A stretch of DNA of 64,000 nucleotides. Source: Lepisosteus oculatus. Lineage: Eukaryota > Chordata > Actinopteri > Semionotiformes > Lepisosteidae. Positions 16,801 through 63,329 of the stretch are shown piece by piece; the first letter of the stretch is position 1, and every line of letters begins with the position of its first letter. The translations under genes were made by a program, and so were the position numbers. The notes beneath the pieces were generated by a model. The model was not told where the DNA came from. It worked only from the letters and a program-made list of their open reading frames with translations, and searched no databases. The DNA lies in assembly GCF_040954835.1 (NCBI RefSeq), contig NC_090698.1, positions 32,851,501-32,915,500 of the forward strand, read 5' to 3'.

Positions 16801-19800
16801 CTTATATTTCAAGTTCAAATAGCATTTTACAAATTCACAAATACCTTCCCAGTGTTGATCTGTAAGAGTTTTGGCATAATATTTCAGTAATAATAATACT
16901 ATAATAAAAAGTCTTTACATAATACTATAATAAAAAGTCTTTACATTTTCGTTAAACATTATTACTATTACACATTTGAGCAAACAAAAAGAACACTAAG
17001 CATAAGCAGTTCCAATTGCACAATGCCAGTTTTCTAAAAGTGCATTCACCATTTGGGTGGTCAAAAGGGGCTTCTGCTGTTAAGTTTCCTGTTTTACTGT
17101 GCTTAGATTAAGTTTTTTGCTGAAATTTTAAACTGAAAACAATTCAACTTCCTAAACTAAAGTACGCAAAACTGACAAGTCACATAATTTAACAAAACTA
17201 CTTGTTTATGAGAAAATCTGTTGTTTTTTAAATGTTGGTTCATCTGTTTAGTTGGAAATGGAAAATTATGGATGCCTGAAAAGAAAATAACTTCTGCAAA
17301 TTACTGACTCAGTCATTCTTTCTACTTTTTACACTGACCTTGTTCTAAAATAAGGGCTCCCTAAAGAGCTCTTTTACTTGCCTGCAGAAAAACAAAATCA
17401 AATTACCAAACCTGAACTCTTAACAGCCTCACAAAAATATTTTCTATAGTATGGCAAAGCTGTCTGATAAAAAGTAGTTCCGTTTTCAGACAAAGAAGTC
17501 TATATTTGTTTTAAACAGCAATTTACTCAAAAAGACTACTTTTATAGGTCACAATAATTAGATGAAAATTTAGAGAAGGATTGAATTTTTTAAGGAGAAA
17601 CCTATGGCGTTATTTACCTGAAAATTTACTCACCTGTCTCAAGTAAAGGAAAAAACTGGAATACTGGCCAGCCTCTGGCAGGTAAGACAAAAACACTGTG
17701 ATACAGATTAGCAACACTGTGGAATCCTTCCCTACTTTCTTCAAGGACTGAAAAGAAAAAAAATTGAAAAGATTTTTTTACTATGTTTACCGCAGCTTCC
17801 TTTTTATTACATTAGCTCTAAATTTAAAACTTTAAATATTAAAAACCTCTAATCTAAAGATATTAAGAGACCACTGAAAAACAATATGATTAGACATTAG
17901 AAGTTGTATATATTAAAAGATAAGCTTCAGATTTAAATCTGAAGATTGATTTTAAATAGAGGGCTCTGAGTGGTTTAAGAAATACCTAGATATTTAACAT
18001 AAATGATGACTGCAAATGCTATTTCTAAAAGTTATATCAAATGAATATTATTAATAAGTGATGAAGGGAATAAATAACCAACTCCTATTGTAGATTATTT
18101 GGATGTTAGTAGCAAAACATTAATCAAGGTCAAGGTCTTACCCTAACTGTAGGGTGATCTCATTGTAACCATTCATTTTTTAGAAAGAATTATTTTTGCA
18201 ACCCCTAAGCTAATTTATGACCATATAATGAGCAAAATCTGTCAAATATTCCACAAAACGACAAGACAAATCATATGGAGACATGTGAATAAAAATTAAT
18301 ACGCCTTTAAGTGTGGTGTTTGCCTAAGCAGATAACATTTGGAGTTAACTGGAGCTAAGTAAAATCCACCTAACCACCATAAAGTTTAAGGGTTAAGCTT
18401 TGTTCTAAATATATCTAAACATTTCTCCAACAATTCCAAATTTCTGGTGTAAAAAACATCTGCCTTATAATTGAATTCCGAAAAAAGAAAAATACTTACA
18501 GCAAAGGGGTCAGCTTTCTCCCATGAAATTGGTGCTCCCCAGGAAGCTGGCCTCATTTTCTCAGGCAATGACTCTGGCACTGCGAGGAGAATGAAGCAGA
18601 TGTCCACCAAAGCAATGATAGTTGCAACAAGCACTACCAAGTTGTCTCCGTAATTAGCAGAGAGGTAAGCACCAATTGCTGGACTCGTTACTAAACTTGC
18701 AGCAAATGTTGCAGAGACCTGAAAGCAAACAGAGATATAATTTAAAACTATCAACATTAGAAAAAATGAGAGCTACAGAAACTGATCTCCAGTACGGGGA
18801 ACAAAAACATGGCATTGTTGAGTTTGGCAGCATTTTCTTTGCCTCCTAAACTGAAGTTTGGCAGGAGTAACATTCTAGAGACAGAGGTTTACCAAGCCCA
18901 CTTCCTCCATGCATCCCAATAGGTTAGTGCTCAGTTTCAGCCTTGTTTGGATTTATAAATATTTATAATTAACACACTACAAATGTAAGTGCCACCAGTC
19001 ATATCACCCTGCAACTCACAACTGGCAACCCACTGAAGCTAAGCAGGTGTGAGCCTGGTCAGTACCTGGATGGGAGACCTCCTGGGAAAAACTAAGGTTG
19101 CTGCTGGAAGAGGTGTTAGTGGGGCCAGCAGGGGGCGCTCGCCCTACGGTCCATGTGGGTCCTAATTCCCCAGTATAGTGACGTGGACACTATACTGTAA
19201 ACAGGCGCCGTCCTTCGGATGAGACGTAAAACCGAGGTCCTGACTCTCTGTGGTCATTAAAAATCCCAGGGCGTTTACCAATCATGGCCTCCTAATTATC
19301 CCCCTCTATGAATTGGCTATATTACTCTGCTCTCCTCCCCACTGATAGCTGATGTGTGGTGAGCGTTCTGGCTCACTATGGCTGCCGTCGCATCATCCAG
19401 GTGGATGCTGCACATTGGTGGTGGTGGAGGGGAGTCCCCATTACCTGAAAAGCGCTTTGAGTGGAGTGTCCAGAAAAGCGCTATATAAGTGTAAGCAAAT
19501 ATTATAATTATTATTAAAAATGACTAATATCCATTAATTGTTTTATTATATTGCTAGACTACTAATTGCAGTCTTTTTTCATTTCTTTTTTGACATGTTT
19601 AAATCTGTGAAACCTCCCTAGTTCTCTCATAAAGGGCAACTGCTTGCATCTAAAGCAGGTGTGTAAATCTCAGTTCCTGGATGGAAAGGTGTCTTCTGTT
19701 TTTTGTTCTTACCTAATTATTTTATTACGTAGACACATACAGGGTGTTTCCTTAGGTCTTTTACAGTTGATAAAATTAATATTTTAAGTTATTAAAAATA

Positions 19801-22800
19801 CAGTTACCTATTAAACACACTGGAGCCAGGATAGAAATATTACAATTATAAAGGATAATTAATTAGACCCACTATGTGTAAGTGTAAGACTCCAGGTGGA
19901 ACAAAAGCCAAAAGACACATGGCCCTTCAGGAACTGAGATTGACACGCCTTTTATTTTTATTTAAGTATACAATTAATAAGGTCATTTATGAAAGACCTT
20001 CTGCATACTCACTGGGGTGAGCTATACAACACTGTTCCTGTAATGAACCTACAGTTCCACCAGAAGGTGCCAAATACTCAGAGAAAGACTAGTTTTCTCT
20101 ATTCCCCAAAGGCATTAGGACATTAAAGGATAAAAAGAGCCATTAGTTAAAATTAATCATATGAACAGCTGAGGCCTGCAAATTGCTAAGATAAGAATCA
20201 TATGAGCTACATTCAAACTGACTTTGCTCCTATTTACCCAAGCTAAGAGTTTCCTATTAACCTGTTCATAGTCTGACAGCAAGAATATACTTGAAAGTCC
20301 AAAGTTCAGTCCACTCTGGCTAGTAGAAGATCAACATGATCGAGGTGATCATTTGATTTAATTACTTTGCCAAGTATATTTAAAGAAATAAACTAAAAAC
20401 TGTTCCATTATGTTATTTGAAAGTTAAATTTGTACAATTAGGTTTATAAATACTATTTCGACTAAGAATGATTGAAAGTAAGAGACTTGGATCCCTATTG
20501 AAATAAGATACAAATCAACAACATATTTAGTTGTTTTTTATACAAAGTACAAACAAATGGCTTACGTTCAATGCATTTGTATTTCAAAATATTTAACTTG
20601 CCACAAGAAAAAGGGGAAAGGACTGAGTAGAAATAATAATTTTCTTACCAGTCCATATGCTGTGATTCTTTCATGTTCCTTGGTGATATCAGCTACATAT
20701 GCAAATATTACAGAGAAGGTGACCGAAAAAACTCCAGACACAGAAATCATAGCAAAATACCACCTAGAAAGAAATGTAAAAATATTAGTTTAAAACGTAT
20801 CTGAAACAGCAGCCATATCAAGGAAAACTACAAAATGCTTAATAAAACAGTACTGCTTGCTCGGCATATACACCCAACAAGAACACCTAATAGAAATCAT
20901 TGGAAATACCTTTAGTTCACGAGAAAGCATACATTTTGCTGTAACATCTTATTTTACTTCAGGGCATACAAGCATTGTCATTATATAATGCAAAATCTAT
21001 TATTCTAGGCATTTAAAAAAATTGAGTAATTACACTTTACAAAACATAACTGGGAAATGAAGGTTGCTATCAGATATTTCAGATTATCAAGCTATGTAAT
21101 TCTGCATCATGCAGTCCTTTCTACACAAAAGTAGGTAGATTTTACTAGGATCGGTTTTCAAACTGCAATTAACCAAAAATAGCTTTTAAAGGAAAAGAGC
21201 CACAGTTATAATGCCCCATGAGATACATGTGACTTGGTACAAAGAGAGCAGTCTCAGCCAGTGCCTCTTACCAGGGACTTATCCTCATTAGAGGAATTGG
21301 GATGCAGGTGAAGAACACTGTGACCAGCAGGAAAGACTTTCTGCCCCACACATCTGAAAGGGCACCAATGAGTGGGGCACTCATGAATGATAAAAAGCCC
21401 TGAAATATTAAGGTAGAAAAAAAGTTAAAGTTCTTCCATTTAAAACAAAGACAACCGAAATAAATTAAAAACTCATTTAGGTAGACTTCTGAAGTTTAAA
21501 AGCAGACGCCATGAAAATATACACTCTCCCCAGGTTACGCAAGACATAACATAACATAACATAACATTACTTTATTAACCCTTTACAATTTCTTGCATTA
21601 GGAATTATCTTTTCCCATACCTCAGCTTGCTCTCCATGAGACACACAGACAGGGATAGAGCTTGGGGTCAGAGCGCAGGGTCAGCCATTGTACAGCGCCC
21701 CTGGAGCAGTTGGGGTTAAGGGCCTTGCTCAGGAGCCCAACGGAGTAGGATTCCAGCCACAGGCGCAGATCCTTAGCCACAGAGCCACCGCTGCGCCCCA
21801 AGACTTGGCTAACGCAAATTTCCACTTCATGTTAAAACCTCCCATGGGTCTCTTAATACATTTTTTATGGTAAAAAGATTTTATGTTGCATGCATAAGGA
21901 GCAAGTAGTACGATACATAACTTCTGCAGATAAAAAGCATGGAATAAACATAATGGAGTAACCACCAACATCACCCGGGGCTGAGTTGGCCACTTTGCTT
22001 TCACACGTGTGGTAACTTCCGAGTTTTTTCCACTGACAATGGTGAGCAATCTGTATTGCAAATATGTCAGGAAGCATCCAAGTGGTTTTATTTTTATTTA
22101 CTGAGTATTGTATTTGGTGTTTAATGGTGGCAATGAAATACACTGTATTTAAACTTTTTTTAGATGGTAATTCTAATTTATTTACTGTACTGTATATTTT
22201 AAGTTTCTGATATATTTGATTTAGTTTGTTACTTTTTTAAGTTTAATTTTTCTAGTTACAGGGTTTTAAAATATATGTTACACTCATTCTTATTTCATTT
22301 CTGTCCCCGATTATAAACAGGGGAAGTTACTTTCTCAACCTCCTGAACAGCTAGCTGCTGATATATTCAAATTCAAGAAGCTTTATTAGTATGACTGATT
22401 TATTACACTGTTGCCAAAGCAGATAAAATTAACACATTTACAGATATTTAGAGCACAAACAAAACTGGACATTTAGATACATTACATAAAACATAAAACT
22501 TTATGTTCAGTGTCAACCCATCTGCCTGTTTCCCCAGGAAGCCCCACTCCAGAAGCCCTTTTACCCTGATCCCAATGCTAATTTCAACAAGCATGAAGAA
22601 ATCTACTTTACTCAGGCTGTGAAAGAAAGAGTAGAGAATGAGCCTGTTATCTCTCTTGCTCTCTACCCCCCTCCATGGTTAGCACACACTTATTAATCAT
22701 TCAACAACAAAAAAACCCAAGGTAATTCTGCTCTCCCGTCTCTTCTTTCTCACTAGACACAGCTTGGGTAAATAAGCAAGGATAACTGTCATAGCATGGT

Positions 22801-25800
22801 AATTCTTTCACGCCTGGCCCGGGAGCGCCTAGTTTCCTGCAGCTGCCATGGGTAACCGCAGCATTCTCACTAGTCCTCACTTTATTTTGCTTTGTTGTAC
22901 ATACACCCTTTACATTATTAATTTCAAATGTGTACTGCAAGAAGAACATCAATCAAAAAGTATTTATATCAAACATACAGAGTACAGAATGATCACTCAT
23001 TACAGTGAACTTTCAATTTCTTCTTATTAATAATTAACAAACCAATAGATTTATTAATAATTAACAAACCACCTATACCTAAAAATATAGCTCATTTTAA
23101 GTTAGGAATTGTGTATTAGAGTACAGATGTTTGCTTTATGTGGTGGCAGTTAGGGCTATGGATTCAATTCTGGACCTGAGGTGGTATCTGTGTGGACTTT
23201 GTATGTTCTCCCTGTAGCGGCGAGGCTTATTAATAAGACAGAATTAAGTGTTGCTGTGCTTTCCCAAATGAGGCCTCATCTCTCTGTTCATCTCTGTGGT
23301 GCAGCCACAGAGAAACTATTCATGCAGGCTGATTTAAAGATGTTTTCTTTTGATAAGGGACAGCTCCCACAGGGGGATGCACTTAGCTAAGCCTGGCTAT
23401 CATGATCAATGGTCATCCATTGGCACCTATCTGTTTAGGGAGTGCCAGATGGACATCTGGACTGCATTCTTAAGTGTCAGGAGTAAGTGACTCATATCTC
23501 ACCTTGATCAACCAATCAGGGACTGGTAGGGCCGAGTAACCCACGTGGGACTCTGATGCCCATGGAACTTTCAGCCAATGAACAAGCTGAAGTTCCTCCA
23601 GGTAAAAACAGGCAACACAGAGGGCCTGAGAGAGAATTCTGTGGACTTTTCTAAAGGGAATTCAAAGGAGAATTCCAGGGCAGGATGGCCCAGGAGCTGA
23701 CCATCCTGAGACCCAGCCCGGACAACCACGGAACGGCCAGTCTGTCCGAGTGCCAGAACTTTCCTTTGTTCTAAGAGTCTAGAGCGGAGGTTGCCAGAGA
23801 GTAACCAGAGGATCCACCCGAGGTTAGCACCAGTAGCAAGCCTCGTGCACAGGTCAGAACTGTGGACAGCTGAATCACTATTCAGAACTAGCTCTTCATC
23901 AGGAACGAACCGGTCCTCTTCCTGACTTGCTGGGACCCACAGTCATCTTTTCTCCTGTGCACAAACTGTGCTAGTTAAAGCCAACACCAACTAGCCAGTC
24001 AGTGAGCATCAGCAGCGCACCGTCGCAAGCCGCACAGCACAACCTGGCACCTAGCCAGACCGCGTGGATTGGACAGCAACAGCCTGAAACTGTTTCTTTG
24101 AGCCCGCAGGAGATCTGAATCCTCAAAGATTGGATGAGTATTCAACTTCACTGCATTACTGCTCGAGAATTCAATTGTTATCCCAACCAGGTACTGACCA
24201 GACTCACACCTGCTTAGGTTGCCAGTTGTGAGTTGCAGGGTGATATGGCTGCTGGCACTTACATTTGTAGTGTGTTAATTATAAATATTTATAAATCCAA
24301 ACAAGGCTGAAACTGAGCACTAACCTATTGGGCTGCACAGAGGAAGTGGGCTGCCAGTTGTGAGTTGCAGGGTGATATGGCTGCTGGCAGATATGTGTTT
24401 GAAATAACCCCAATATATTCAACTGAAGTTAACAAAAGAAATAATAATACATCAAGAAAATCTCCTACCTTTACACCTTGTATTAGGCCATTCATCAAAA
24501 ATGTATGCTGTGGAAATGTTTCATGGAGGACCTAAAAAAGAAAAGCAAGATTGCCAAATAAATTATTATTTTTCATGGTTTAGGATTTTTCCATAACAGT
24601 TTTTTTTTAATGATTCCTGTCAGACCCCAAAAAAGCAATTTCATTAGATTTAAAGATTTTAGATTTCAGTATTTGGCAGGTTATTATTAGGTGTAGTATC
24701 TTCTTAAATTCTTCTCAATCCCATGTATAACAATAACATCATGTGAACTTTCAAATGTGCTGTAGGTCACTGTGGCACCTTACGTATATTATAAGGTATA
24801 ATATGACTTTCTAAAATAAAATGATCATACAGTATGTTATACTATCCACATTCCTACAAATAGTTGCTTGATCTCTGAAAAAAATAACTTTTTTCATAGA
24901 ACTAGGATATTTTTGCCCCCAGAGAAAATAGGTGCCAGTATTATTATTATTATTATTATTAAATTGACAGTAACTTCGTAACCACATAAGGTTTAAGATA
25001 TTGTAAAAATAACTATTGGCCAATAAAGAGAAACAGAATAATGTGCATTTTTTAATTTTAAAATTCATCTGTTAATCTGTTAAAAATATCTCTTAATTCT
25101 TAAAATAACATTTCCAACTGAAATTTACCTTATGTACATGTGTAATGAAATGCAAATATACACTATATATCTGTTGATGAATTTTTGTACCTGCATATAC
25201 AGACTTCTCTTTCTAATGTTCTTGATTTCTGGCAAAAGTGACTTGAAAAGGATTTGAATCTGTGTGTTCACTATTCACACAACTTCTGAAGACACTTGAT
25301 AAATAATGTTCATTTTCAACTTTAACAATCAATCAATTTTACTGTGATATGGTGCCTTTCAAACAGCAGTCCCAAGGCCTACATAAAGAAAATGTACAGA
25401 AGCAGAAAAATAATCATATAAAATGTATAACTTATTAGATTATAAGAAATTAAAAGAATGATGTCAGGAATTGAAGGACGTAAAGAACAAGTAAGTCTTG
25501 AGGCACGTTTTAAAAACATTAGCAGACGGTGCGATCAGGAAGTATATTCCAAATACTGGGGGTCCTAGGAACAGTTAGGGACCTACAGCCATCCAGACAA
25601 AGTGATTGATTAATTCTTGAAAGTACATCGATGGTACACCGCATGGCACCTACTAGGTCAACCAGAGAATTTTAAAGTCAATCCTGTAAAATACTGGTAG
25701 CCAAAGCAAGACTTCCAGCACAAGAAAAATCTGTTCTGATTTTTCAGATCAGCACACGAGCAGCACAGGACTGGACGTACTGTAGTTTCTGAAGTTATTT

Positions 25801-28800
25801 CTTGGATGATCCAGCTAGCAAAGCATTGCAGAAATCTAGTCCTGAGGAGATGAAAGCATGGACTACTTTCTCTGCATCAGTAAGAGAAAGAATTTGTCTT
25901 AAGCAAGATACAGTACGTCTCATAAATGGAAAATGGATGCATTGCAGACTTTGTGGATGTGATTAGAAAAACAGGGAAGTCAAAATATATAAAATATATA
26001 AATCATCCCTAAAGTTTTAACAGAATTTGAGGGAAGATAGCAGACAAGCTATTAGAAAACCAACACGTTTACTTAACTACATAATTAACAATGAATATAA
26101 CAATGAGATTTTACACATTCTTTGGAGGTGGCAGAAACTGCACATACAATTGTGGCTTATATATTTAGAAAGTGTTGGTCCTTTCATCTCCCTATTTAAC
26201 TGATAGGACTTTTTATGGAAATCTGTGGTAAAATATCTGTAATGGATACAATTTCCAAAACTGAATCTGCATAAAATAATTATACTATATACTATAAAAA
26301 TATATATATACTAAATTACAGTATATACTATTATACTACCGTCTTTTGGATGAGACATGAAACCAAGGTCCTCTCAGTGATCATAAAAGATCCCCAGGCA
26401 TTTTGTCAATAAGAGTACGGAGTTACCCCAGTGTCCAGGCCAAATTTCCCCCCTCGGCCTTTACTGTGGCCTGCTAATTGTCCCCATGTATTATTAGCTT
26501 GCAATAGCCCTGCGATGGACTGGCATCCTGTCCAGGGTGTACCCTGCCTTGTGCTCGTTGCTTGCCCGGTAGGCATTTGCACACAAAATGCAACTGTGTG
26601 ACCACTCTCTTGAATTTCCACGATTGAAAGACTCTCACGTTTTTATTGACATATTAAGGATTTTAGAAAAATTATTCTGAGGCTCTCAGAATCAAGCTCA
26701 CTCAAAAGATTTATGATTTATATTTTACTCAAAACATGTAAAGGAATTTTATAAGAAATAGATTATTTGGATTGTGGCCATTTTTTCAAATTGAAAAATG
26801 TTCAATAATATTTTTTTAAAAGGTTTTTAATGAAAACTGAGTTTTCTATAATATTCTCAAATATTCTATAAATTGCTTCAATTGTTAATTATGAATTGAT
26901 TCAATTAATTTGCGGTGCTTAGCGTTGCTGCCTTGCAGCACTGGGGCCCTGGGTTCAATTCCAGATATGGGGTGCTCTCTGTATGGAGTATGTATTTTCT
27001 CCATGGATTCACGTGGGTTTCCGTAGATGTGAGTGTGTTAGTGTCTGTGTGCCCCGCAATGGACTGGCATCCCATCCAGGGTGTACCCTGCCTTGTGCCC
27101 ATTGCTTGCTACAGAAAAGAGAATCACAAAAATAAGAATTAATTCTATATAGTTGAGGAATCCCTTTTTCACAAGATATTTTAAGTTTTAAAAAGACAAT
27201 ACAGTCATGTTTTTTTCTGACCACTGAAAGTGTTAAGTTTCCAGATGTAAAAGTATATCAGTAAAATTAAAATCACAAAAAGCCAAAAGCCTGAAACACA
27301 AATTTCTGTGCTTAGTAAAGGCTCAAGTATAATAAATAAAAACCAATTTAGAGATAGTAACACATAGTAGATGATAAAACAGAAATAACATCCAAGCTAC
27401 ACTATAAATAGAAAGGTAAATATTGTGAAAGGGATATGATGTAATTATGTACCATGGAGCTTGTTGACTCTTGTTTTTAAGTTCATTCATAATACACAAT
27501 GTACGACTTAAGACCACTGGACACTGCACATCATAATTTACTAACCTTGATAATACTGTCTGAATATCCAACACTGTCAGGACAAGATGAATCTTTAATT
27601 TCTAGTCTTAACATGTTATTGATGCATAGAGTTTGGAGATATTTTCCTATTTCCTATTTTTGTACTTCAAGCAAGGAACAGACAATAAACAAAATACAAA
27701 AACAAAATGTTTTGAACATTGCACCAATACCCTGTTAACACAGAACTTCAGCACAAACCAAATTGACTTCATTTTCTACCTTGACGTTAAATGTATACAC
27801 AACTTCTTAATTTGGTCGTATAAAAACATACAGTACTTACAGTTAACATTGGAGTTGTTAATAAGCCCCAGGCAAAAAATTCCAAGAATATTACAATCAC
27901 AGCATGGGTAACACTAGCATTCCCAATTCCCTGGTGCTGTGAAAAGAGAAAGAAAGAATTTAGTAACTTGTAATACCACATATTAAATTAATAGCATTTC
28001 AAACAACTGGAGACTTTGGAATTGCATGTGCAATACAGAATAAGATCTAAAAAATGATTGTGATGGTCAAAATACACACAAACAAAAGTGCAAAGTGTTT
28101 AAAATCAACAAAATGAAACAGAAACCATTAAAATTAAAAGACTGGGAATTAGATTTAACCAAGATGCATTCACAAAATGTCTCATGTGGTGAATATTTGT
28201 TGCAAACGGTTCACCTGCAAAGTCTGTGTTGTATTCTGAGGAAGAATTGATAGCACACAGAGGTAAATAAAACATATCTTACAAAAATCGTACAAAAATA
28301 ATGTCATACACAAGAGCTGAGTATCAGCAAACTATTAGATATAAATTGATAAAAAAATAATAAAATAAATTGTTAAATAGGCCTAGTAAACATTCCTAAT
28401 GAAATTCATAACTTTCATACTTATATTTCAGAGCAATGGCTAGTCGAAACATTCAGAGATGTGTATTGTAACGCTTACGGCCGACAAGCACTGTGTGTAA
28501 GAGCCGGCGTACCAGAGCAGGTGACGTCACCGCCCTTCCCTGTGATAGCAGCACTACAGCTACTGGGCTGTAGAGAGATCTCTCTTTAGCTCACGGGGCT
28601 AGGTCGCTGCAGAGAGACGCGGAAGTCCCGGGTTCAAGCCTCCAGTCGGGATGGGGCCGACCAGATGCGGCAAGGGCGCCCGCCTGAGCCCCCGTTGCGT
28701 TACATTGGTGTTAGAAGCAGGATGGGATAGCCCTTCGCCGGGGACGGCGATTTAAGCGGGGGAGAGCGTAACGCTTACGGCCGACAAGCACTGTGTGTAA

Positions 28801-31800
28801 GAGCCGGTGTACCAGAGCAGGTGACGTCACCGCCCTTCCCTGTGATAGCAGGACTACAGCTACTGGGCTGTAGAGAGATCTCTCTTTAGCTCACGGGGCT
28901 AGGTCGCTGCAGAGAGACGCGGAAGTCCCGGGTTCGAGCCTCCAGTCAGGATGGGGCCGACCAGATGCGGCAAGGGCGCCCGCCTGAGCCCCCGTTGCGT
29001 TACAGTATGAAGGGAAAGGAGGAGATACAGTGTCTCAATAATGTCTCTTTTTGTTGAGTTACATGTTAGATTACTAAGTGAATGTTTTTCATCAAAACCT
29101 AAATGCTCAAATTGAACATGTGTGGGCAATAACTCAAATGTCTGCAAAAACAAAAAAAAATATAGAAAATAAGCTGTAAGAATTCAAATCAGAAATGAAG
29201 CTTCCACCCATTATGAGAAAGCCACTTGTCCTGGTGTGGGTCATGGCAACTTGGAACTAAACCCAGAAGCACATGACATAATACATTCCTTTGTAAACCA
29301 CAAGTGCCGTTATTTTCAGAGCCCAAAAACGGTCTCTTCTTATACCATTCTTGTGCTTAACAAGCAACAGGCAAGAACAAGTCACAGGTAGCTTAACTGG
29401 AATATGCATATGATCTCTAATTTCACACTTGAGGACACAAGTTCTTAAACTATTAAACTAGTGGGTCGCTTTGTTTGCAAATGAGTCACAACACTGGTGT
29501 GCAAAATAGTGGTGCTCTTCAAATAGTCAACCAAAAAGCAAATAAATATATACAGTATTACAGTTTCTATACTGATCACACTGCCCAGAAGAAAAAATAC
29601 CAGCTGAAGATGCAGAAATTGAAACTGTTTGACAAGCTGAAGCACCACAGAGCAAAGCTGAGCTAAATTCATGATGTACTGATATAGCAACGGTTTGTTA
29701 CACTCCAAATGTTTACACTGAAAATGTGGCAAAAGAACTACTATCACATTTTAAATTTAAATGTTTTTCTGTGAATTAAAACTACCATTGTTTTGAGTTT
29801 AATAATTTTCTCATAATACATAATGCTTGTTAGATGTGGTTAATAAAAACATTCAAATTATATGCTAGTATGCTGTGTGATTTGTTTGTTCTCATGACGT
29901 ATAGGCCAGGGTTTTAATTATTTCTACTAAGTAACTACAATAATAGCATACAAGCACTGAATGGTAACCAATAAGAACATTACAAATAATGCAAATATGT
30001 GGAGGCCAATCTGCTCGCAAATCTAGCAGTTCATGCTGCCTTTTCTTAAAAGTACCCAGAGAATGGGCCCAAACAACCTCACTGGGAAGCTTGTTCCACA
30101 TCCCAAAACAATTTTTGTAAAGAAAAATTTCCTATTAAATGTTCTCAATGAATTCTCTTTTAGTTCCAGTTATGACACCATGGTCTTGTGCTACTGAGAT
30201 TAATCATATTTATAAGATCACTTTATTGAGACACTCATGAGACACACAGACAGGGAGAGAAGCTTGGGGTCAGAGGGCAGAGTCAGCCATTTATACGGCG
30301 CCCCTGGAGCAGTTGGGGTTAAGGACCTTGCTCAGGGACCCAATGGAGTAGGATTTCTCTGCTGGCCGGGATACGAACGGGCAACTGTCCAGCCACGGGT
30401 GCAGATCCTTAGCCACAGTGCCACCGCACCACCCAAAGAAAGCTCAGGCCAGGAACAGGGTTTGAGCCCCCGACCTCCAGCATGCGAGTCACACGCCAAA
30501 GCTGGATCTTAAAATCCTTGAATTAGATCTTATCTACCATACTCCTTTTTTATATAGTGAAAAGATTTACAGTATGTCCCCTTACCTGTCTAGACATTAC
30601 AACACCCTGAGATCAGAAATCATTTTTGTTCTTCCTCTTGGAACTTTATAGGCTAAAACTTTCTGTGTTAGTGACCCAATGTGACTGAGTATGCTAAGTG
30701 ACGTATTACTGGTATATTGCAAAGCAAAAACACAATATCCATCCATCTTTTTTCTAAAAACTTTATCCAATACAAGGATGTGGGCTACCACTCCAGGATG
30801 TATCCTGCCTTGCCCCCAGTGATTGCCAGGTTAGGTGTTGGCATCCCCCGCAACTCCATTCTGGATAAAGTGGTTTAGGCAATAGAAAGATAGGTAATAT
30901 TTTAAGCAGCTGACTATCCATCTTTCTCAATTTAAATAGTTCCAATGAAAATACATGAAAAGAAAAATCTAAGCTTTTTGCTGGTCAGCCTTTGCCACAG
31001 TCATTTTAAAATTTTGTTACCACAACATTAAAATCTTTGGTTTACATCAGACAACTACACCCATTTTTTCAAGTTTGAGAAGGTGTTTTTTTCCATTTTC
31101 TTATCAATATTATTCTGTGGCGGAACAGCAATGTAGAGACAAACCTCCTTTGAAACAAAATTTGTTTTTCAAAAAAGTTAAGTCAAAGATGGATCAATAG
31201 CAGACACATTTCTACTAACATCAATTTTTTAAATCCATTTTTTGAAACTTCAAGATGGTATTGCAGAGAACTGTTAAGTGTGTAATTTAGAAATATCAAT
31301 AGGATGATAGAGAACTTCTACCTGTTATCTGAGTGAATGCTTTTGATTTACAAACAAAAAGGCAAAAAAAGGTTACAGAAAAATGTATAAATACTTGTAG
31401 GTCCTCGATTCTATTAAGCAAGGTGAAATTCAGATAAGTTCTAACACTTCAAAGGCTGTAGAAGTGCAGTGTCTAATGGACAGTTAACATGTCGATATTT
31501 TTCAAGTTTTCCTTTGGTTCTGTTTAGGTTTCAATAATAAGCAATTTCCTTTGTCCCTTAGCCTTATATCTCAGTATTAGGGGTTACACAAGGTCTTTGC
31601 GGGGACCAAAAAAAAACGTTTGGTATTTGCATCAGGTATACCGTGTTGTGGTTTTTCCAACACATTGTTCAAGAACGAAGCCAAAATTACTACTTGTTTC
31701 ATACAGACCTTTACGGTTACAGTCACATAACATGTCATACAGTAGCATAAAAACACATTAGGCCTGCACTTCTAGAGTCCCGAAAGACTGCTATAGTCAA

Positions 31801-33959: not shown

Positions 33960-34516
33960 GCCAGCAGCCATATAACCCTGCAACTCACAGCTGGCAGCCC
34001 ACTGAAGCTAAGCAGGTGTGAGCCTGGTCAGTAGCTGGATGAGAGACATCCTGGGAAAATCTAAGGTTGCTGCTGGAAGTGGTGTTAGTGGGGCCAGCAG
34101 CCGGCGCTCACTCTGTGGTCTGTGTGGGTCCTAATGCCCCAGTATAGTGATGGGGACACTATACTGTAAAAAAGCACTGTCCTTCAGATGAGACGTAAAA
34201 CCGAGGTCCTGACTCTCTGTGGTCATTAAAAATCCCAGGGTGTCTCTCGAAAAGAGTAGTGGTGTTACCCTGGCATCCTGGCCAAATTTCCCATGGACCT
34301 TTACCACTCATGGCCTCCTAATAACGCTCATCTATAAATTGGCTTAATACTTGATGTGTGGTGAGCATTCTGGTGCTTTGTGGATGTCATCGCATCACCC
34401 TGGTGGATGCTGCACACTGGTGGTGGTGCAGGGGAATCCCCATTACCTGTATTGCTTTGAGTGGAGTGTCCAGAAAAGCACTATAAAAGTGTAAACAATT
34501 ATAAATTATTATTATT
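33960..34516 (+). repeat. full-length 5S rRNA-headed SINE
   Basis: Head, body and tail are all present: 'gccagcagccatataaccct', 'gaagctaagcaggtgtgagc' and 'cctggtcagtagctggatga' (5S-like), then 'gatgagacgtaaaaccgagg', 'ggatgctgcacactggtgg' and 'gagtgtccagaaaagcacta', with an ATT tail. It is colinear with 18991-19516 and keeps the 'ctcgaaaagagtagtggtgt' block that copy lacks. Confidence 0.85.
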
Positions 34517-41100: not shown

Positions 41101-44100
41101 TTATTTTTTATCTACTATAGTTATTAGTTTATTGTCTTTACTCATTAGCTGTCAATCACTGGCAATTAATAAATAATTGTCACAGTGTGAGTTTTTACAT
41201 GGTTTTCATTTTATATATGTACATAATAATCTAGCTAGAATATATAATAATTGAAAGAATCTTATTATTTCTCAATCTTCTTCTTCTTCGCATTTTCCCA
41301 CTTATGTGGGGTCTGCTTTTTTGCACCAATTGTTCCACTTCGTATGGTATGCAGCGTCTTGGCAGGTGACTTTTGCGAGGCGCATGTCGTCTTTCAGCCG
41401 ATCCAGCAAGCACGTAAATGGTCGTTCAAGGGGCCGGCAGCCTTCCACATTCAATTCAAGGGCGGTCTTTGCCATTCATGTGTCCATACCATTGCAGGCG
41501 CGATTTCCTCATTTTCTCAGTGATTGGGGCGACTTTGAGTGTTTTTCGCACCTCTTTATTCATGACATGGTCTAGTCTTGTCAAGCCAAGGGTCCATCGC
41601 AGCATTATTTTCATCGCATGGAGTGCCTGTTCATGTTTCTTTGTCGTTGGCCAGCATTCAGTTCTGTATAGGGCCACTGGTCTGATCACTGAGCGGTAGA
41701 CTTTGGATTTTAGGCACAAAGGGATCTTCTTGTCGCACAGTATTCCAGTGACCTGCCGCTATTTCATCCAAGCGGCGCTGACTCGCATCTTGGAGTCTTG
41801 GAGGGTAGTGCAGTCGGAGTTGACACATGAGCCTAGGTACTTGAACTGTGTCACTTTGTTCAGTTGGAACCCACCAGCTGCGATTGTGCCATCGGTTTGA
41901 TCACCGTATTCCAGGTACTCCGTCTTCTTGATGTTCAATTTCATCCCGAATCGTTCAAGGCGGTCTTCCACTCCTGTACTTGCTGTTCAAGGCTGTGTCG
42001 CGTTTCACTTGCTCTCATAACATCGTCGGCATACAATAGCGTCCATGGATGCCTCGTTTGGATATCTTTGTTCACTGTATCCATGCAAAGTATGAATAGC
42101 AAAGGAGACAAGACTGAGCCAACATGGTGGATGCCAACATTGACCGGGAAGGTGTCTGAGGTTACAGCTGCGCAACGTACTGAGCTAGTGGCCTTTTGGT
42201 ACAGGAGCTTTGTCCAGCTGACAAAGCCTTCGGGGACGTGGTGCTGTAGCAGCGCCAGCCAGATGAGATTGTGCGGTACTCTGTCGAATGCCTTTTCCAG
42301 GTCGAGAAATGCCATGTGGATCATTTTCCTCTTCTCGTGGTGCCTATCCATCAGTAGGCGGGCTGCGTGTATGGCGTCTATTGTTCCGCAGTTTTTCACA
42401 AAGCCGCATTGGTTTGGCGAGATATCGATGATGGTTCTTAGTCATGCGTCCAGCACACGCTCGAAAATCTTCATTGTATGGCACAGCAGCCAGATCGGCC
42501 TGTAATTGGAGCAGTCATTAACGTCGCCTTTTCCTTTCCAAATTGGCACTGTGATGCTGGTTTGCCACATTTCTGGGGGTGCCTTTTCCTCAGTGATCTT
42601 ATTGAAGAGGTCCGCGAGCCATGCTGCTCCTTGTGTTCCAAGGAGCTTCCATACTTCGGCTGGGATGTCGTCCGGGCCAGTTGCTTTGCCACTTTTCATT
42701 TTGTTGATGGCAGTGGTTACTTCTGGGATTGTGATGGTGGGTACTGGGCCGGAGATGGTATCGGAGCTGCTGGTAGTGGAGGATGTGGAAATTCCTCGTT
42801 GCATATTTTCTCGAAGTAGTCCTTCCAGCGCCGGAGAATGTTTTTTGGCTTCTGCAGCATCTGCCCATTTTCATCTTTGTCGATATGTTGATAACGTGTC
42901 CTAGGTCTTGTGTGGCTCGGTCATGTGCGTGGGCGAGTTTGTAGATCTTGTTTGCCCCACCAGGCGTGTCCAGTTGATCATAAAGGTCCTGGTAGTGTGC
43001 CGCCTTTGAAGTCGCCATGGTTTGCTTTGCGGTGGATTTCAATGTGCAGTATCGCATTTTGTCTGCCGCCAGGTCTTGTAGGCGTCCTTTTTTGCCTTGG
43101 TTGCCTGCTGCACATCGTCGTTCCACCACCAGGTCTGTTTGTCGATAAAACGCCAGTTTGGTTTTGTGGTTCCCAGGGTGGTTGCGGCGCATGTCTTGAC
43201 GCGTTCAGCCAGGTTGTTCCAATCTTCGCCGACTGTTTGTCTTGGATTGGGCACCAATGGTCCTAGTGTCGCCTTCACAACAGCTTGATGTTCTGGTAAT
43301 TCACCATTTGATGCGTTCAATATTGGTGGTTGGTCGCGCCGGGGTTTGGACTAGGCGGACTTTGGCATCCAACACCAATAGCTGATGTTGTGGGGCGATG
43401 CTGTTGTACGGGATTACTTTGGTGTCAGTGACCATTTTAAATAATCTTATTATTTCTCAGTATTATTTCTATTAGCTAAACATAATGTTGAAAAATGTAT
43501 TGAGTGCTTCCGTAATAACAATTTGCTTGATCAAAATCCCTGCTTTACATGCAGTTTCTTCTTAATAGCTCAGTTCCTTTTGATCTAGAGTTAATAAATT
43601 TAAATTCAGGAAACTGAAAACATAATAAGGTGTTAACAAATATTAAGTGCAACAGACTGAAGGTGGTGTGCTAGATATGTGAGATATTAATTTACAGACC
43701 TGTAGATACACTTTTCAAGTATTATTTAGTATATGAATGTATTGAAGTTTGTAAGCAAACCTAGCATCAGATCTGGATTTTAAAAAAGCACATATGAAAA
43801 AACAATTAACCGGGAACTGGCTAGGAAAATGAGGGATAGTTAACCTGACTGCGAAAGAAAACCCGAAACACACAGTCTTCGGCGTCTTCAACACCCTAAC
43901 TAACCTCCACTGACTACCCAAAACCATACAAGACAAATGGCACTCACCCGTACTAAACTAGTGTTACTAATACAAAGTCAACTAAGTGTGTAAAGTGTAC
44001 CCAACAACCTAAACTAACCTTATATACAAAAGTTCACACAAAAACACAAGTGAACCAGGAATACAAATAAGGGAAAACGAGAGTAATCAACAGGAACAGG

Positions 44101-47100: not shown

Positions 47101-50100
47101 GTCTATCAGCTTTGACAACTTTCGGATCCCTAGTCCTTACACCTCCATCATCTCCAGGACTTTTGGCTCACAGGTTGTGGCGTCGCTCACCATTTGCAAT
47201 TGTTTCTGTAGTGTGTGTTTATTTTCAGCCTAGCTAGACTGCAGCTGTCCAACTGTGCCTGTATTTTAGACTCCAAGTTCTCCCTCTGCTGTTCTTTAAA
47301 GGTCTTAGGTCTTATTCATCTCCTTTTTGTGTTTTGTGCACTCAATGCAAATTGCTCAGTTGTGCCTTGAGGCTGTGACTGCAGCTCTGATACTTTCCTA
47401 GCTCATCACTCTCCTCTTTCAATTGTACTAATATACAGCATCTTATATACAATTGAACAAAAATCACAGGAACTTTGTGGAATTGAAACTTATGATTAAA
47501 GGAACATAAGGGGTTACAAATGAGACCAGGCAATTCTGTGCATAGAGGTTTTATTTTGTTTGCAGCTCTTAGATCTTTTTTTCTAACATGGTGTTCAAAA
47601 TTTTTTTTTACAGTTTTTACAATGTAAAATCACTAGATCTTTCCCCCTTATATTGCTTCCCCATACTTTGAAGATTTAAAGTATGTATCAAAATGGACAC
47701 CTAAGCTTTTTTAATACATAGCTTCTTCATCCTGTTTCCCATCTTGAATCAAAATTGTTTGTTTATACTACTTGTGTGTAATAGTCTGCATCACTCTACA
47801 TTAAATATGGCAGCATGGTGATACAGTTGTTAGCGTTGCTTTCTCAAACCACTGGGGCCCTGGGTTCAATTACCAGACTGCTATCTGCATGGAGTTTATA
47901 TGTTCTTCCCATGTTCCCATGGGTGTTCTCCATGCTGCTCTGGTTTTCTCCCACAGTCCAAGGACATACTAGTAGGTTAATTGGATTCTGGAAAAACTGG
48001 CCCTGGTGTGAGTGTGTTTATGTCTGTGTCTGCCCCGCATTGGACTTCTGTCCCGGCCAGGGTGTATCCTACCTTGTACCCACTGCTTGCTAGAATAGTG
48101 CTCCAGTTCTCCATGAACCCTGTATTGGATTAAGTTAGTAGATGGATGGACGTCTACATAAAATATCACCAACCAGGAGTTTGCCTACTGTTACATTTTT
48201 TTCATTTTGAAATTACTTTTCTGCTTCTACAGTACTTGCTAATCTGCTTCTGAAAGTAGGCAATTCTCTGCATAAAGCTCTTTTTATTTTAGTTATTAAC
48301 TGTCCTGAGCAGCATTACCTTATTTGTAACATGGTGTTGATTAGTTTAATAACTATTCCAATCAATATGAATTAGGAAACAGTGGCATGACCTCAATTTG
48401 AGTAATACTTTTAGATGTATTACTGTGTACTATCCATTAACCAGTTATTAATTCAAAATCTTTTAATCTTTAAGTAATTAAACAAAATATGTGTTCAAAA
48501 GTTCTAACAAGTTAGTTAATCAAGGCTTCCCTGATCAAAATCCATACTGACTATTCATTAGAATACTATTACAGTATATCTTCCATAATCGTAATAATTA
48601 CGTTATACTTTTTACATGTAAGAAGTAATGCTTATTCGTCTGTAATTACTTGGCTTGGGCTTGCTGTCTTTTTTATTGATGGATACTTTACTAGAAAATT
48701 CCAGGTAACTGACTATTTTTCCTGTCTTGAGTGAATGTTTTGAAGAGTTTTGTTATTGGCTGTAGGGAAAACCGGTTCAGGGACGCCAAATATGTAATCA
48801 TAGTGGCTCTCTGAAGGCACCAGTTCTGTAGGGTTTGGGCATTTACTGAGACAATTATTAATTGTAGCAGTAAATCACAAAGTTGATTCTTTTGATGGCT
48901 TTAGATGGCTTTAGAATCCAACCATGCGATATAACTCAAACAACGCTCGCACACAGGTACTAATACACGAGGATACATTTATTAATACATAGAATATGCA
49001 TGTAAACCTAACAGATCTTATCGAGAGGGTTATCAGAATACAAAAGGTATATATTCAATCAGTTACGAAGTGTTACACATCAAGAGGACATACGTTCAGT
49101 ATATCATTCATTAAGACCATTTCGTAAAGTGAACTTGGTTACAACTTCTACATTAGATACTCAAAACAAGTACATAACTCTTAGGAATTAAATTGATATC
49201 AACTGGTTTGGATAACAATTGAATTCTCGAGCTGTAATGCATTGAAGTTGAATACTCATCCAATCTTTGGGGATTCAGATCTCCTGCGGGGACAAAGAAA
49301 CAGTTGCAGGCTGTTGCTGTCCAATCCGCGCTCTCTGGCTCCGTGCCAGGCTGTGCTGTGCGGCTTGCGACGGTGCGCTGCTGATGCTCACTGTTGGCTT
49401 TAACTAGCAAAGTTTGTGCACAGGAGAAAAGATGACTGTGGGTCCCAGCAAGTCAGGAAGAGGACCGGTTCGTTCCTGATGAAGAGCTAGTTCTGAATAG
49501 TGATTCAGCTGTCCACAGTTCCGACCTGTTCACGAGGCCTGCTGCTGGTTACTCTCTGGCAACCTCCACTCTAGGCTCTTAGAACAAAGGAAGGTTCTGG
49601 CACTCGGACACACTGGCCGTTCCGTGGTTGTCCGGGCTGAGTCTCAGGATGGTCAGGAGGCGCGCTGCGAGAATGTCCTGCCCTTGGGAGCCTTCTGCTC
49701 CTGGGCCGTCCTGCCCTGGAATTCTCCTTTGAATTCCCTTTAGAACAGTCCACAGAATCGTCTCCAGAATCTTACTGAATCTCTCTGAATCTCCCTTTCT
49801 GAATCTGAATCTGAATCTCCCAGGCTCTCTGTGTTGCCTGTTTTTACCTGGAGGAACTTCAGCTCATTGATTGGCTGAAAGTTCCATGGGCATCAGAGTC
49901 CCACGTGGGTTACTCGGCCCTACCAGTCCCTGATTGGTTGATCAAGGTGAGATATGAGTCACTTAGGAATGCAATCCAGATGTCCAACTCGCACTCCCTA
50001 GACAGATAGGCGCCAATGGATGACCATTGATCATGATAGCCAGGCTTAGCTAAGTGCATCCCCCTTTGGGAGCTGTCCTTATCAAAAGAAAACATCTTGC

Positions 50101-53100
50101 ATGAATGGTTTCTCTGTGGCTGCACCACAGAGATGAACAGAGAAATGGGGCCTCATTTGGGAAGCTCAGAAACACTTAATTCTGCATTATTATTAAGCCT
50201 TGCCGCTACATGGCTTATGAATAATATCCATGGTTACATTAAGCACAATTCACAGAATACCATCAGAACCTGGAAGTTTGTTTTTCTTAAGTGTTTTTAA
50301 TACTTGTAACATTTCTTCCTGTTGTGTGCTATCCAGTGCAATTTGTTTTCTCAGCATGATGCACATTGTCAGTTTTCTTTCTTCGGTAAACACCTGAGTG
50401 AAATATCCACTTAATATACTTGCCTTTTCTCTTGCATTGTCTTAAAGCCTCCCCTTATTAGCTCAGAAACACTTACACTGAAAAAATAAATTGCATTGTT
50501 TATTTTACTCACCATTGGAGTAATCTTTTCTGTCTCTCATTTAACCTTTCAGGGATGCTATTTTATCAGTGTTGCCAATTTATTCCCTAATATCCTCCAT
50601 TTACTCCCATTACTCTGAGAGCCATATCCTGTCTCTCATTTTCAAGAAAATTAAGTGTCCAGAAGATTCTGAACAGAATGATGAAGCAGTGACTGGACTG
50701 TCAAGATTCAAACCTTGTGCTCATATTTAAATTCTGTGATAAATATTATATTATACATATAAATTATTTTACTTCTTTCAAAACAAGAAGCAGGTTTTGA
50801 TAGCTCTGTGTTCCCTATGTGCCGTCTGTATGGCATGTTGTAGAACATGTTGCCATGGTGCAATAAGAGCAGTCAGCAGAGTAGCAGTCTCATGTGAAAA
50901 TTAATCTGATCACCATCTGTCACCTATTGTGAGAGGGTCTCGCTGCTTTGGTGCACTGCAGAGTATCATTCTACCTGAAGCATGAAGAGTCATCATTTCC
51001 CTCTGTCAATGAGAGAACCATTTCATCTACAGAGCCTGACTGCATTCATACCACATCCAAAAATCTGCTTTCTCCCCCTTCCCTGAGACTTTAAGATCTT
51101 TAATGATTAACTGCTTGCACGGCTGCAGATAGTTTTTAGGAAACAGTTTATTGACTTTTAAATTAAAGTAATGTGGTGGATAAATATTAACTGGGATTCA
51201 TTTTATTACTAGGCATTAAACTAAAACATTCACCTTAAATTATTCAGGTAATACACGACAATATGATATCATTTTTTGCATTACAATAATAAACTGAAAA
51301 CTCCCTATGCATATACATTGAAAATGGCAAGAAGGACCAGCACATTGCCAAGGAATTCACATAGCTATACACATTGAAATAGACTTAATTTCCCAGCAGA
51401 ATGTGTTTAATTGTGCAACGATATGATGCCTTTGAGCAAAAAGTTGATTTAAGGTTGTGTCTGGAAATCTGCCATTATTAATAAAATAAAATTCATTACA
51501 CCATTAAAAGAGAACACATAAAATTTAAATTTACAGTGCTCAACTACTAATTTCAATTTCCTAACAAGGTTTAAATATTAGTATCAAATACATTTCTAGT
51601 TTAACATCTTCAGAACCAAAATAATTCAATTATTAATATTTTAATAATGATCTTTCCTGTTGATTTTGTTAGGTTAAATGACTAACAAAATTGGAGTAGT
51701 AGGTGATCCTTCTCATTTTTGGAGTTAAGAATAACAGCATCAGAAAATTAATTTAAATTCTACAGAAGATAATGCCAGCATACTTCAAAGCATAGAGATT
51801 AGGTAAAGGATATGCAGATACTCTTTTTACAATACTGATTAACAAATTCAAGACAGCACTGTTTTTGTTTGGACTGAACGTAACTGATATTTACTTTAAG
51901 CAAAGCTTTTTCATCCATGTTCACCCAGACCAAGAGAGTTGTTGGATCTGTTATTGAAACTGGCACATTCAATCATTAAATAGTGAAGTGGAATTTGATC
52001 ATTAAATAACGACAATTAATTTAACTCAGATTAAATAACAATGTCATCCCAGCTGCCAAATGCAGATGACACATTGTGTGCTGCCTGGACTGTAACCAAT
52101 TAGTCCTCTGCAGAAGGAAAAAAGGTTCATTTTGGGAGTGTGTGGTACTGTACCATGTCATTCATACATGCCTGTTCATTATAAATTTATCAACTAGTAA
52201 GAACTGTTTAGCCAGATATAAAGGCAAGTTGAAGAGACGTTGTGTTGTTGGAGCAGGTATTTTTAACACACAGGGATGACAGAAACAAGTTAAATTGAAG
52301 ATAAAACCAGCAAGCAGATCAATGAAGTCATCAATTAGCACTGCAGATATAGAGCTCCACTACAATGAAAACCACCAGACACACTGTTCCTCCAGGACCT
52401 AGAGTGGTAACTATGGCCTTATACAGTACATCATCAAAAGACCTTTTTTTTTTTAACATTAAAGGCCTTTGATGATAAAGATTAGTTTTACATGAACATA
52501 CTTCCCACATTGTGATGATGGGTAGATAATGACATGGGATGGGAGGTTAATGTAAAGCAGGAAAGAATATGAGCAGGACAGCCTTGTATTTCGGGATGAG
52601 CTCTTTGAGAATGCACTTACCAGAATGCTATCTACAAATGTGTTAACTAGCATTATTTTTTCCATAGGTACGGTCATACATGTGCACTGGTGGGTGACCA
52701 GATATACATGTTTGGTGGCTGTTCAGGGGATAACTGTTATCACACAGATGTTCATATTCTCAATACAGGTAAGTTGGAGATCACACCACCAGTACACATA
52801 AATGGTAGTTAGAAGCTAAAGTTCCTGCTTCTGACGCCCATGTTTCAGTTTATTTTGCAATGTTTCCCTGGTTTGTTTTATTGGATTTTGAACCTGGTTT
52901 GTACATGATGCACATGATATCCTACTTCTTCCCTCAACAAAACAACAAATTAAATGAATTTGATTCTCCTGGCTGGATAAGATGGCCGTTCTGCTACAGC
53001 AATCTCTCTATGTTGACACATACATTATGTGAAAATGAGATGGTGGTGGCGACCTCCCAGATTACAGTAATAGCTCGAACATAGTGATGTTTACAGTAGT

Positions 53101-61583: not shown

Positions 61584-62661
61584 TTACATTCCCGAACGTC
61601 CCCCGCCCCGGTCAACAATCCTAGGAAGAACACGAAACAGCCTGTTAATAAAATTGTTACAATTTTGTTCGGTCAGTTCTTCCTCCCAGAATTTATAGAT
61701 CGCATCGATAAGTTCCTGCTTTGTGACGGGCTTAGCGGTTTTCCGAACGTAGTCTTTCAACGAATGCCAAACCATCTCTATCGGATTTAGATCTGGGGAT
61801 TAGGCTGGAGTTTTCACCCAGTTCACTCCTTCTGCTATAAGCCTCGCCCTTGCTGCTGTGTGTTTCGGATCGTTGTCTTGAAAGAGACGGTGCCTTGATC
61901 CAAACTGCTCCCTGATATATGGGGCAGCATGCTGTGTGACCACGACTTCCTCGAAGAATACACGGTCCATAATTCCTTCGAAAATAAGAAGTGGTCCCGG
62001 GCCTCTTCTAGATATACCCCCCCAGACGTGAACCTTCAGTGGATGTTTGGGCTTTGGCTTGTCCACATGCCTCCCCTTTTTGCAAAATGCCATTGTTGAA
62101 AACTGTTCCAGAGCCACTGTTGTTTTGTCGGTAAAAAGTACATCCTGAAATGCCTCCCCCTGTTCAATCCATTGGAGCGCTTGCTTGAGTCTTTCCTCTT
62201 TGTTTTTTAGCCTTATCATGGGGCATGTGTTGGTTTTTCTGTATCTCCATCCAAGCCTCCTGCGTACTCTTCTTATCGATGTCGGGCTAATATTCGCACC
62301 GATGTCAGCCCATAGCCGTCTTTGGACTTGCATTGCCGGTAGCTCATCATTTTCATCGGTCAGTTTGTCGATAGCTCGCACAATAGGACTTGAAAAAAAA
62401 GAGATCAGCAGTTAGTTTTAAAAATAATGTGCGTAGTTGTATTTACATGCAAGAAAGGTATTTTTGGAAATGTATTTACCTTTGAATCGTCCTCGGTTTA
62501 GATTCTCTTTGCCTCCTCTCCCCTTTATAATACCGTCTCACTGTGCTTTCAGAAACGAAGATGTCCATCGAAGCCAACTGCTGTACAATGTCCCGTGTTG
62601 ACTTCCAGTTTCTTTTCATCTTCATTATTTGGTGTGAGAGAGTCTTCGTGATTTTGGTCAT
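61584..62661 (-). pseudogene. Tc1/mariner transposase with a 91-bp intron and one nonsense codon
   Basis: Exon A 62480-62661 (MTKITKTLSHQIMKMKRNWK onward, helix-turn-helix with STRDIVQQL and SESTVRRYY) joins exon B 61584-62388 through a GT-AG intron (62389-62479, phase 2). The product would be 328 aa, typical for Tc1. Domain 2 has [15 protein letters not shown]; the DDE domain has [36 protein letters not shown] and SPDLNPIEMVW. A TAA (61800-61802 on plus, as tta) falls just before SPDLNPIE; otherwise the frame is open. The spacing between the second Asp and the Glu is 32 residues, not the usual 34. No terminal inverted repeats were located. A single stop suggests recent death. Confidence 0.85.
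62389..62479 (-). other. intron of the Tc1/mariner transposase
   Basis: Donor CAAAG|gtaaat, acceptor tttttttcaag|TCCTAT, 91 bp, phase 2; joining gives [14 protein letters not shown] without a break. Most Tc1 transposases lack introns. Confidence 0.7.
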
Positions 62662-63329
62662 TGTCCGTCCCCTTACCAAAGCGATACAGTGGTGCAGCTT
62701 GAATTCTGTACCTATATACTGTATGGTATGGTACTGATAAAACTTACACCATACCGATGAGCTAATGCCAGGGAAAGACACTCCTATTTTATTTAAAACA
62801 CAATACGCCAGGAAATGTGTCTGATGCATTAGCAAGTTAAAACAATTGGGTCGAAAACCTGGGCGTAACACCATTTCCTTTTTCTGATCACTCGCTTTCT
62901 GGATACACATCTCACCTGTCCTGTTCTTTGTTTTCCTGGTTTGCTGATTATGCCTGCTGCAGTCCACTCCTACCCTCACACCTAAAGAATACTATTTTTA
63001 ATTTCTTGGCGCAGTTCATAAACCCTTGTATGTGCTGTCCGCGCCCAAAATTTAAAAAAAGTAAAAAAAAACGTGCTCAAAATGCAATTTAGAGCTTAAT
63101 AAGATACACTCCACAGGCAAAATTAAAGACAAAATTAAAGACGATTAAAATCTGTAATCTTTCCACTTGTACTGTGAGTCATCGGACAGTTTCTGCTTTG
63201 TGTAAGGATGGTATCGAAAAGCAATCTTAAGTGGTGAGAAAACTATGCTCAATGTATTTAAGAGACTTAAAAGTAAAAGGAGATGCTTCATATTGCTTGA
63301 CTAATTTTAAAAACTAAGTTATAAATGCA

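Follow-up and report, generated by a model that had tools for sequence, protein, structure and literature searches.

The 64,000-nucleotide stretch of the gar Lepisosteus oculatus analysed here (contig NC_090698.1, positions 32,851,501 to 32,915,500; hereafter the window, whose own numbering is used throughout) carries at 28467-29004 what is best explained as a structurally complete terminal-repeat retrotransposon in miniature (TRIM) of the Helenus kind, with a tRNA-like box region in each of its long terminal repeats (LTRs). The element sits within a gar MFSD14-family gene, in its first coding intron and antisense to it, and this reading, together with the cycle proposed for it below, is given a probability of about 0.86. 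Helenus is the name given to TRIMs that bear tRNA-derived sequence in their LTRs (Kojima, 2024; PMC10886601). The kind of element is already known; what looks new is the host, probably a further lineage (Holostei) to be added to those recorded.

Architecture of the element

The 538-bp unit consists of two 238-bp direct repeats, whose starts are spaced 300 bp apart (28467 and 28767), and an interior of 62 bp. Its first bases are TGTAACG and its last are CGTTACA, and GTAT is duplicated at both flanks. The primer-binding site (PBS) beside the 5' LTR was compared with 23 tRNA ends, among which tRNA-Leu was the best at 15 of 18 positions and the runner-up tRNA scored 12; when 10000 random strings with the base composition of the interior were scored in the same way, 2 reached 15 against any of the 23 ends. 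At the other end of the interior, the polypurine tract AGCGGGGGAGAG, which includes one C, adjoins the 3' LTR. Coding capacity is absent, the longest Met-started stretch on either strand being 34 amino acids. The definition of a TRIM followed here is that of Kojima (2024; PMC10886601), namely two LTRs, a total below 1000 bp and no protein coding; the element shows all of these, along with the PBS, the purine tract and the target site duplication. The original prediction had described the repeats, the ends, the duplication, the PBS-like start, the 62-bp interior and the purine tract, and had assigned the whole to the non-autonomous LTR elements; each of these was recovered on rereading, and the assignment stands.

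The two LTRs differ from each other at 5 of 238 positions. By reading, four of the five differences are of the CpG/TpG or CpG/CpA type, including the first base of the 3' LTR, which opens with C (CGTAACG) in place of the customary TG.

Only one instance of the LTR arrangement is present in the window (blastn), and a single visible copy would suit a GC-rich segment that had been duplicated in tandem at this place by chance. Simple tandem duplication was rejected because a target site duplication, a PBS and a purine tract are present; these and the complementary ends are placed exactly as in LTR elements, and the GC content of 61.5%, as against 35.8% in the 2-kb flanks, also argues against a local duplication, which can hardly be credited as an explanation. 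Another possibility is that the element arose recently by deletion from an autonomous LTR retroelement that has the same LTRs, in which case the boxes described below would not be conserved. Autonomous elements also have tRNA-Leu primers and TG...CA ends. A Leu-primed Gypsy element from a wasp has been named (PMC10886601). Against such an origin, the interior holds barely more than a PBS and a purine tract, and in the one Helenus/autonomous pair aligned in the cited paper the interiors are alike and the LTRs are not (PMC10886601). A deletion derivative is regarded as very improbable.

The tRNA-like box region

Each LTR carries an A-box-like and a B-box-like motif, scored against the box consensuses. 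The A box TAGCTCACGGGG agrees with 7 of 9 fixed consensus positions in both LTRs, the B box (GGTTC[A/G]AGCCT) with 8 of 9 in both, and the spacing between them is exactly 44 nt in each. At a spacing of 44, a value taken from the initial observation itself, the box score was reached by none of 1000 dinucleotide shuffles of either LTR; with the spacing left free between 40 and 50, it was reached by 6 of 1000 shuffles for the 5' LTR and 8 of 1000 for the 3' LTR. The paired boxes of the original prediction were thus borne out. It had further singled out the B box of the 3' LTR as canonical; that box is indeed near consensus, but the one in the 5' LTR is equally good, and it is the A box that is imperfect.

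The stretch from box to box is also tRNA-like. Against a panel of 15 human tRNAs, the best local alignment, which spans the A box to the B box (about 57 nt), was to tRNA-Ile, and its score was matched by 1 of 1000 shuffles for the 3' LTR and 10 of 1000 for the 5' LTR. The alignment with tRNA-Ala covers a similar stretch, and that with tRNA-Gly just 19-21 nt near the B box. A tRNA gene is another matter. The search for one that the original prediction had proposed gave no tRNA: ARAGORN found 0 tRNA genes in the window, comparison of 28400-29100 with Rfam yielded no tRNA even at E values as high as 10, and neither thereby detected the cloverleaf of a tRNA gene. Because the box-to-box stretch aligns to tRNAs while ARAGORN and Rfam detect none, the LTRs are read from their sequence as keeping a putative tRNA-type promoter region and not a tRNA. 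Hence the earlier description of the LTRs as tRNA-carrying holds for the likeness between the boxes and overstates the rest.

A source copy of the tRNA-like part was sought in the window by blastn at word size 7, which outside the element gave only stretches of 11-25 bases with E of at least 0.38. Exact patterns of the LTRs and interior had 0 matches in viral and genome contigs of virus and prokaryote collections, and blastn against phages and plasmids gave no match; these collections could have yielded a match only through the slim chance of contaminating fish DNA, and both results have little bearing on fish.

Which polymerase reads the LTRs?

The boxes suggest transcription by RNA polymerase III (Pol III). 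The LTRs may instead belong to an ordinary TRIM that is transcribed by RNA polymerase II (Pol II) from a CpG-rich promoter bearing a cyclic AMP response element (CRE), the boxes being an inert relic left by the former insertion of a short interspersed element (SINE) or tRNA into the LTR. Each LTR indeed has the palindrome TGACGTCA, which we take to be CRE-like; its two copies, one per LTR, are the only ones in the window, and the observed/expected ratio of CpG is 0.85, against 0.38 in the window. The failure of ARAGORN and Rfam to find a tRNA fold, the imperfect A box and the occurrence of the same box score at some other places would also fit an inert relic. However, upstream CREs are also found in some Pol III genes, for example 7SL; both LTRs keep the tRNA spacing of the boxes and a B box near consensus; and TATAA, AATAAA and ATTAAA are all absent from the element's plus strand. 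In addition, the sequence around the boxes is conserved across Helenus families (PMC10886601). On balance, transcription by Pol II with inert boxes appears unlikely, and a Helenus-kind TRIM with a Pol III-type promoter is preferred.

Several observations weigh against the preferred reading. The A box departs from the consensus at 2 of 9 positions. When the window was scanned on both strands, a box pair of equal score at a spacing of 44 turned up at one further site, 60619 (+); the 3' LTR, read on its reverse strand, attains the same score at spacings of 51 and 62. One of 1060 window tiles outside the element (47720, +), itself a tRNA-type SINE-like stretch by reading, outscores the 3' LTR on the tRNA panel, the control having been scored against the 3' LTR value and not the lower one of the 5' LTR. 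Four pieces of the interior and LTR were folded as RNA and none clearly beats its shuffles: z was 0.68, 1.00, -0.15 for the whole interior (77 of 200 shuffles equally stable) and -1.03 for 28720-28760 (30 of 200). The element is the sole copy seen in the 64 kb. Lastly, TTTT is missing from the element's plus strand, an absence that is only weakly informative in 538 bp at 61.5% GC.

Proposed cycle

A cycle can be proposed in which TFIIIC would bind both boxes of the 5' LTR and Pol III would initiate about 12-20 nt ahead of the A box, at about LTR position 101-109. With no TTTT on the element's plus strand to halt it, Pol III would continue across the 62-bp interior and then the 3' LTR, terminating in the flanking DNA; the first TTTT there, at 29048, is for the same reason taken as the presumed stop. 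Both LTRs would contribute R-U5 to the resulting RNA, and the 3' LTR would also contribute U3, so that a helper reverse transcriptase could rebuild both LTRs from it. Gag, reverse transcriptase and integrase would be supplied by a helper LTR element, presumably of the Gypsy type, as has been suggested for animal Helenus families (PMC10886601). A tRNA-Leu would prime at the PBS and the strong-stop DNA would transfer to the 3' LTR; the second strand would be primed by the purine tract, and the integrase would insert the copy, making the 4-bp duplication. A small hairpin in the interior (28735-28750) may be offered, weakly, as a candidate packaging signal.

Comparison with Helenus and other Pol III-type TRIMs

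The original prediction had considered a tRNA-type TRIM in a vertebrate to be a possible novelty. This does not hold, as Helenus families have already been described from the coelacanth (LTR1_LCh, LTR2_LCh), sterlet, paddlefish, zebrafish (LTR-11_DR) and other Ostariophysi (Kojima, 2024; PMC10886601). The gar element resembles these in being a TRIM of a few hundred bp with an A/B-box region per LTR, the motifs being TRGCY...YGG and GGTTC in Helenus and TAGCT...CGG and GGTTC in gar (PMC10886601). The duplications of animal Helenus are 4 bp long, as is GTAT, and the primers in vertebrates are tRNA-His, tRNA-Leu or tRNA-Lys, among which falls the tRNA-Leu of the gar element (PMC10886601). The PBS and purine tract agree too, and a tRNA was predicted in only a few Helenus families, so most of them, like the gar element, have no working tRNA (PMC10886601). 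The likeness concerns these described features. As gar is missing from the hosts in Table 1 of the same paper, it would be a new host lineage for Helenus; the main text has no mention of gar, Lepisosteus or Amia, while Repbase or the supplement may contain a gar family (PMC10886601). Among the matches listed, judged by title and the opening lines of the abstract, no other report of tRNA-bearing TRIMs, or of such TRIMs in gar, was found apart from Kojima's paper. In the text searched of the longnose gar genome paper (PMC10320754), the word 'miniature' is absent and the three matches to 'trim' refer to read-trimming software.

Helenus has been grouped with Cassandra and Ajax as 'TRIMp3', the Pol III-transcribed TRIMs (PMC10886601). 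Cassandra of plants shares with the gar element the TRIM form and a Pol III promoter in the LTRs, putative in gar, whereas its promoter is derived from 5S rRNA and its transcription ends inside the 3' LTR at conserved terminators, in contrast to the tRNA-like boxes and TTTT-free plus strand of the gar element (PMC10886601). Ajax of nemerteans is likewise a TRIM with a Pol III-type promoter and a tRNA-Leu primer, but it is 5S-derived and has a 5-bp duplication, unlike the tRNA-like gar element with its 4 bp (PMC10886601). The A/B-box region is also common to the tRNA-headed SINEs (SINE2), which are without LTRs, PBS and purine tract and are moved by non-LTR retrotransposons (PMC10886601).

A more far-reaching proposal is that the element represents an unreported Holostean branch of vertebrate Helenus, sharing ancestry with the families of ostariophysans and of sturgeon/paddlefish; a single lineage of tRNA-promoter TRIMs would then have existed in ray-finned fishes since before the sturgeon-gar-teleost split. 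Its promoter would be composite, with Pol III boosted, as in 7SL-type genes, by a CRE lying about 40-50 bp before the presumed start. This is put forward as a speculation and is doubtful as it stands. Gars are a slowly evolving outgroup of the teleosts, and the extension of tRNA-promoter TRIMs to them would help to decide between a single and a multiple origin of the fish Helenus. The element is also a compact case, with its 62-bp interior and no internal TTTT, of how little an LTR element may need for movement in trans.

Host gene and insertion site

Within the gar MFSD14-family gene, the element has inserted antisense into the first coding intron, whose flanking exons are at 32935-32858 (the first coding exon) and 27942-27838. 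Exons for all 489 residues of this transporter are present, and their joined minus-strand translations match MFSD14-family proteins of Lepisosteus oculatus and Atractosteus spatula at 96%, while relatives in sturgeon, paddlefish and polypterids reach 83-89% (both among the best 120 of 1667 matches). Compared exon by exon, the window agrees with the L. oculatus protein in the body of every exon, and they differ only where a matched stretch ends, at places expected to be exon boundaries. Beside one such boundary the window and L. oculatus have H, versus Q in the A. spatula record. By these protein matches the host is a gar, most likely the spotted gar and possibly another Lepisosteus.

Table 1. 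Coordinates of the element, its signals and the host gene in the window.
Feature	Positions	Strand	Basis
Gar MFSD14-family (hippocampus abundant transcript 1-like) transporter gene, exons for the full 489 residues	4648-32935	-	
Target site duplication, left copy, GTAT	28463..28466	.	read directly
5' LTR, 238 bp, TGTAACG...CGTTACA	28467..28704	+	read directly and self-comparison
Palindromic CRE-like site TGACGTCA, 5' LTR	28522..28529	+	motif search
A-box-like motif TAGCTCACGGGG, 5' LTR	28587..28598	+	box scoring; within tRNA-aligned stretch
B-box-like motif GGTTCAAGCCT, 5' LTR	28631..28641	+	box scoring; inside or at end of tRNA-aligned stretch
Interior, 62 bp	28705..28766		read directly
tRNA-Leu-like PBS	28706..28723	+	15/18 match to tRNA end
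6-bp hairpin TCGCCG-GGGA-CGGCGA in interior	28735..28750	+	minimum free energy and centroid folds of 28720-28760
Polypurine tract AGCGGGGGAGAG, one C, adjoining 3' LTR	28755..28766	+	read directly
3' LTR, 238 bp, CGTAACG...CGTTACA	28767..29004	+	read directly and self-comparison
CRE-like site TGACGTCA, 3' LTR	28822..28829	+	motif search
A-box-like motif TAGCTCACGGGG, 3' LTR	28887..28898	+	box scoring
B-box-like motif GGTTCGAGCCT, 3' LTR	28931..28941	+	box scoring
Target site duplication, right copy, GTAT	29005..29008	.	read directly
First TTTT 3' of element, in flank; presumed Pol III stop	29048..29051	+	position by search; putative role

Other repeats in the window

Stretches resembling tRNA-type SINEs, with A/B-box-like motifs, were noted by eye at 21640-21800 (-), 30240-30423 (-), 34954 (+) and 47806 (+); none of these was matched when the LTRs were compared with the window by blastn. 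At 18991-19109 and 33960-34078 (+), two stretches resembling 5S rRNA exceed the Rfam gathering score; they head repeats that are 91% alike over 285 bp and are probably 5S-headed SINEs of the SINE3 type. A long inverted pair about 25 kb apart (23261-24352 and 49203-50163), with aligned pieces 92-97% alike, represents one repeat in opposite orientations. Broken frames of a reverse transcriptase like that of long interspersed elements and of a Tc1-like transposase were seen by eye in the list of open reading frames at 41456-43350 (-) and 61584-62991 (-).

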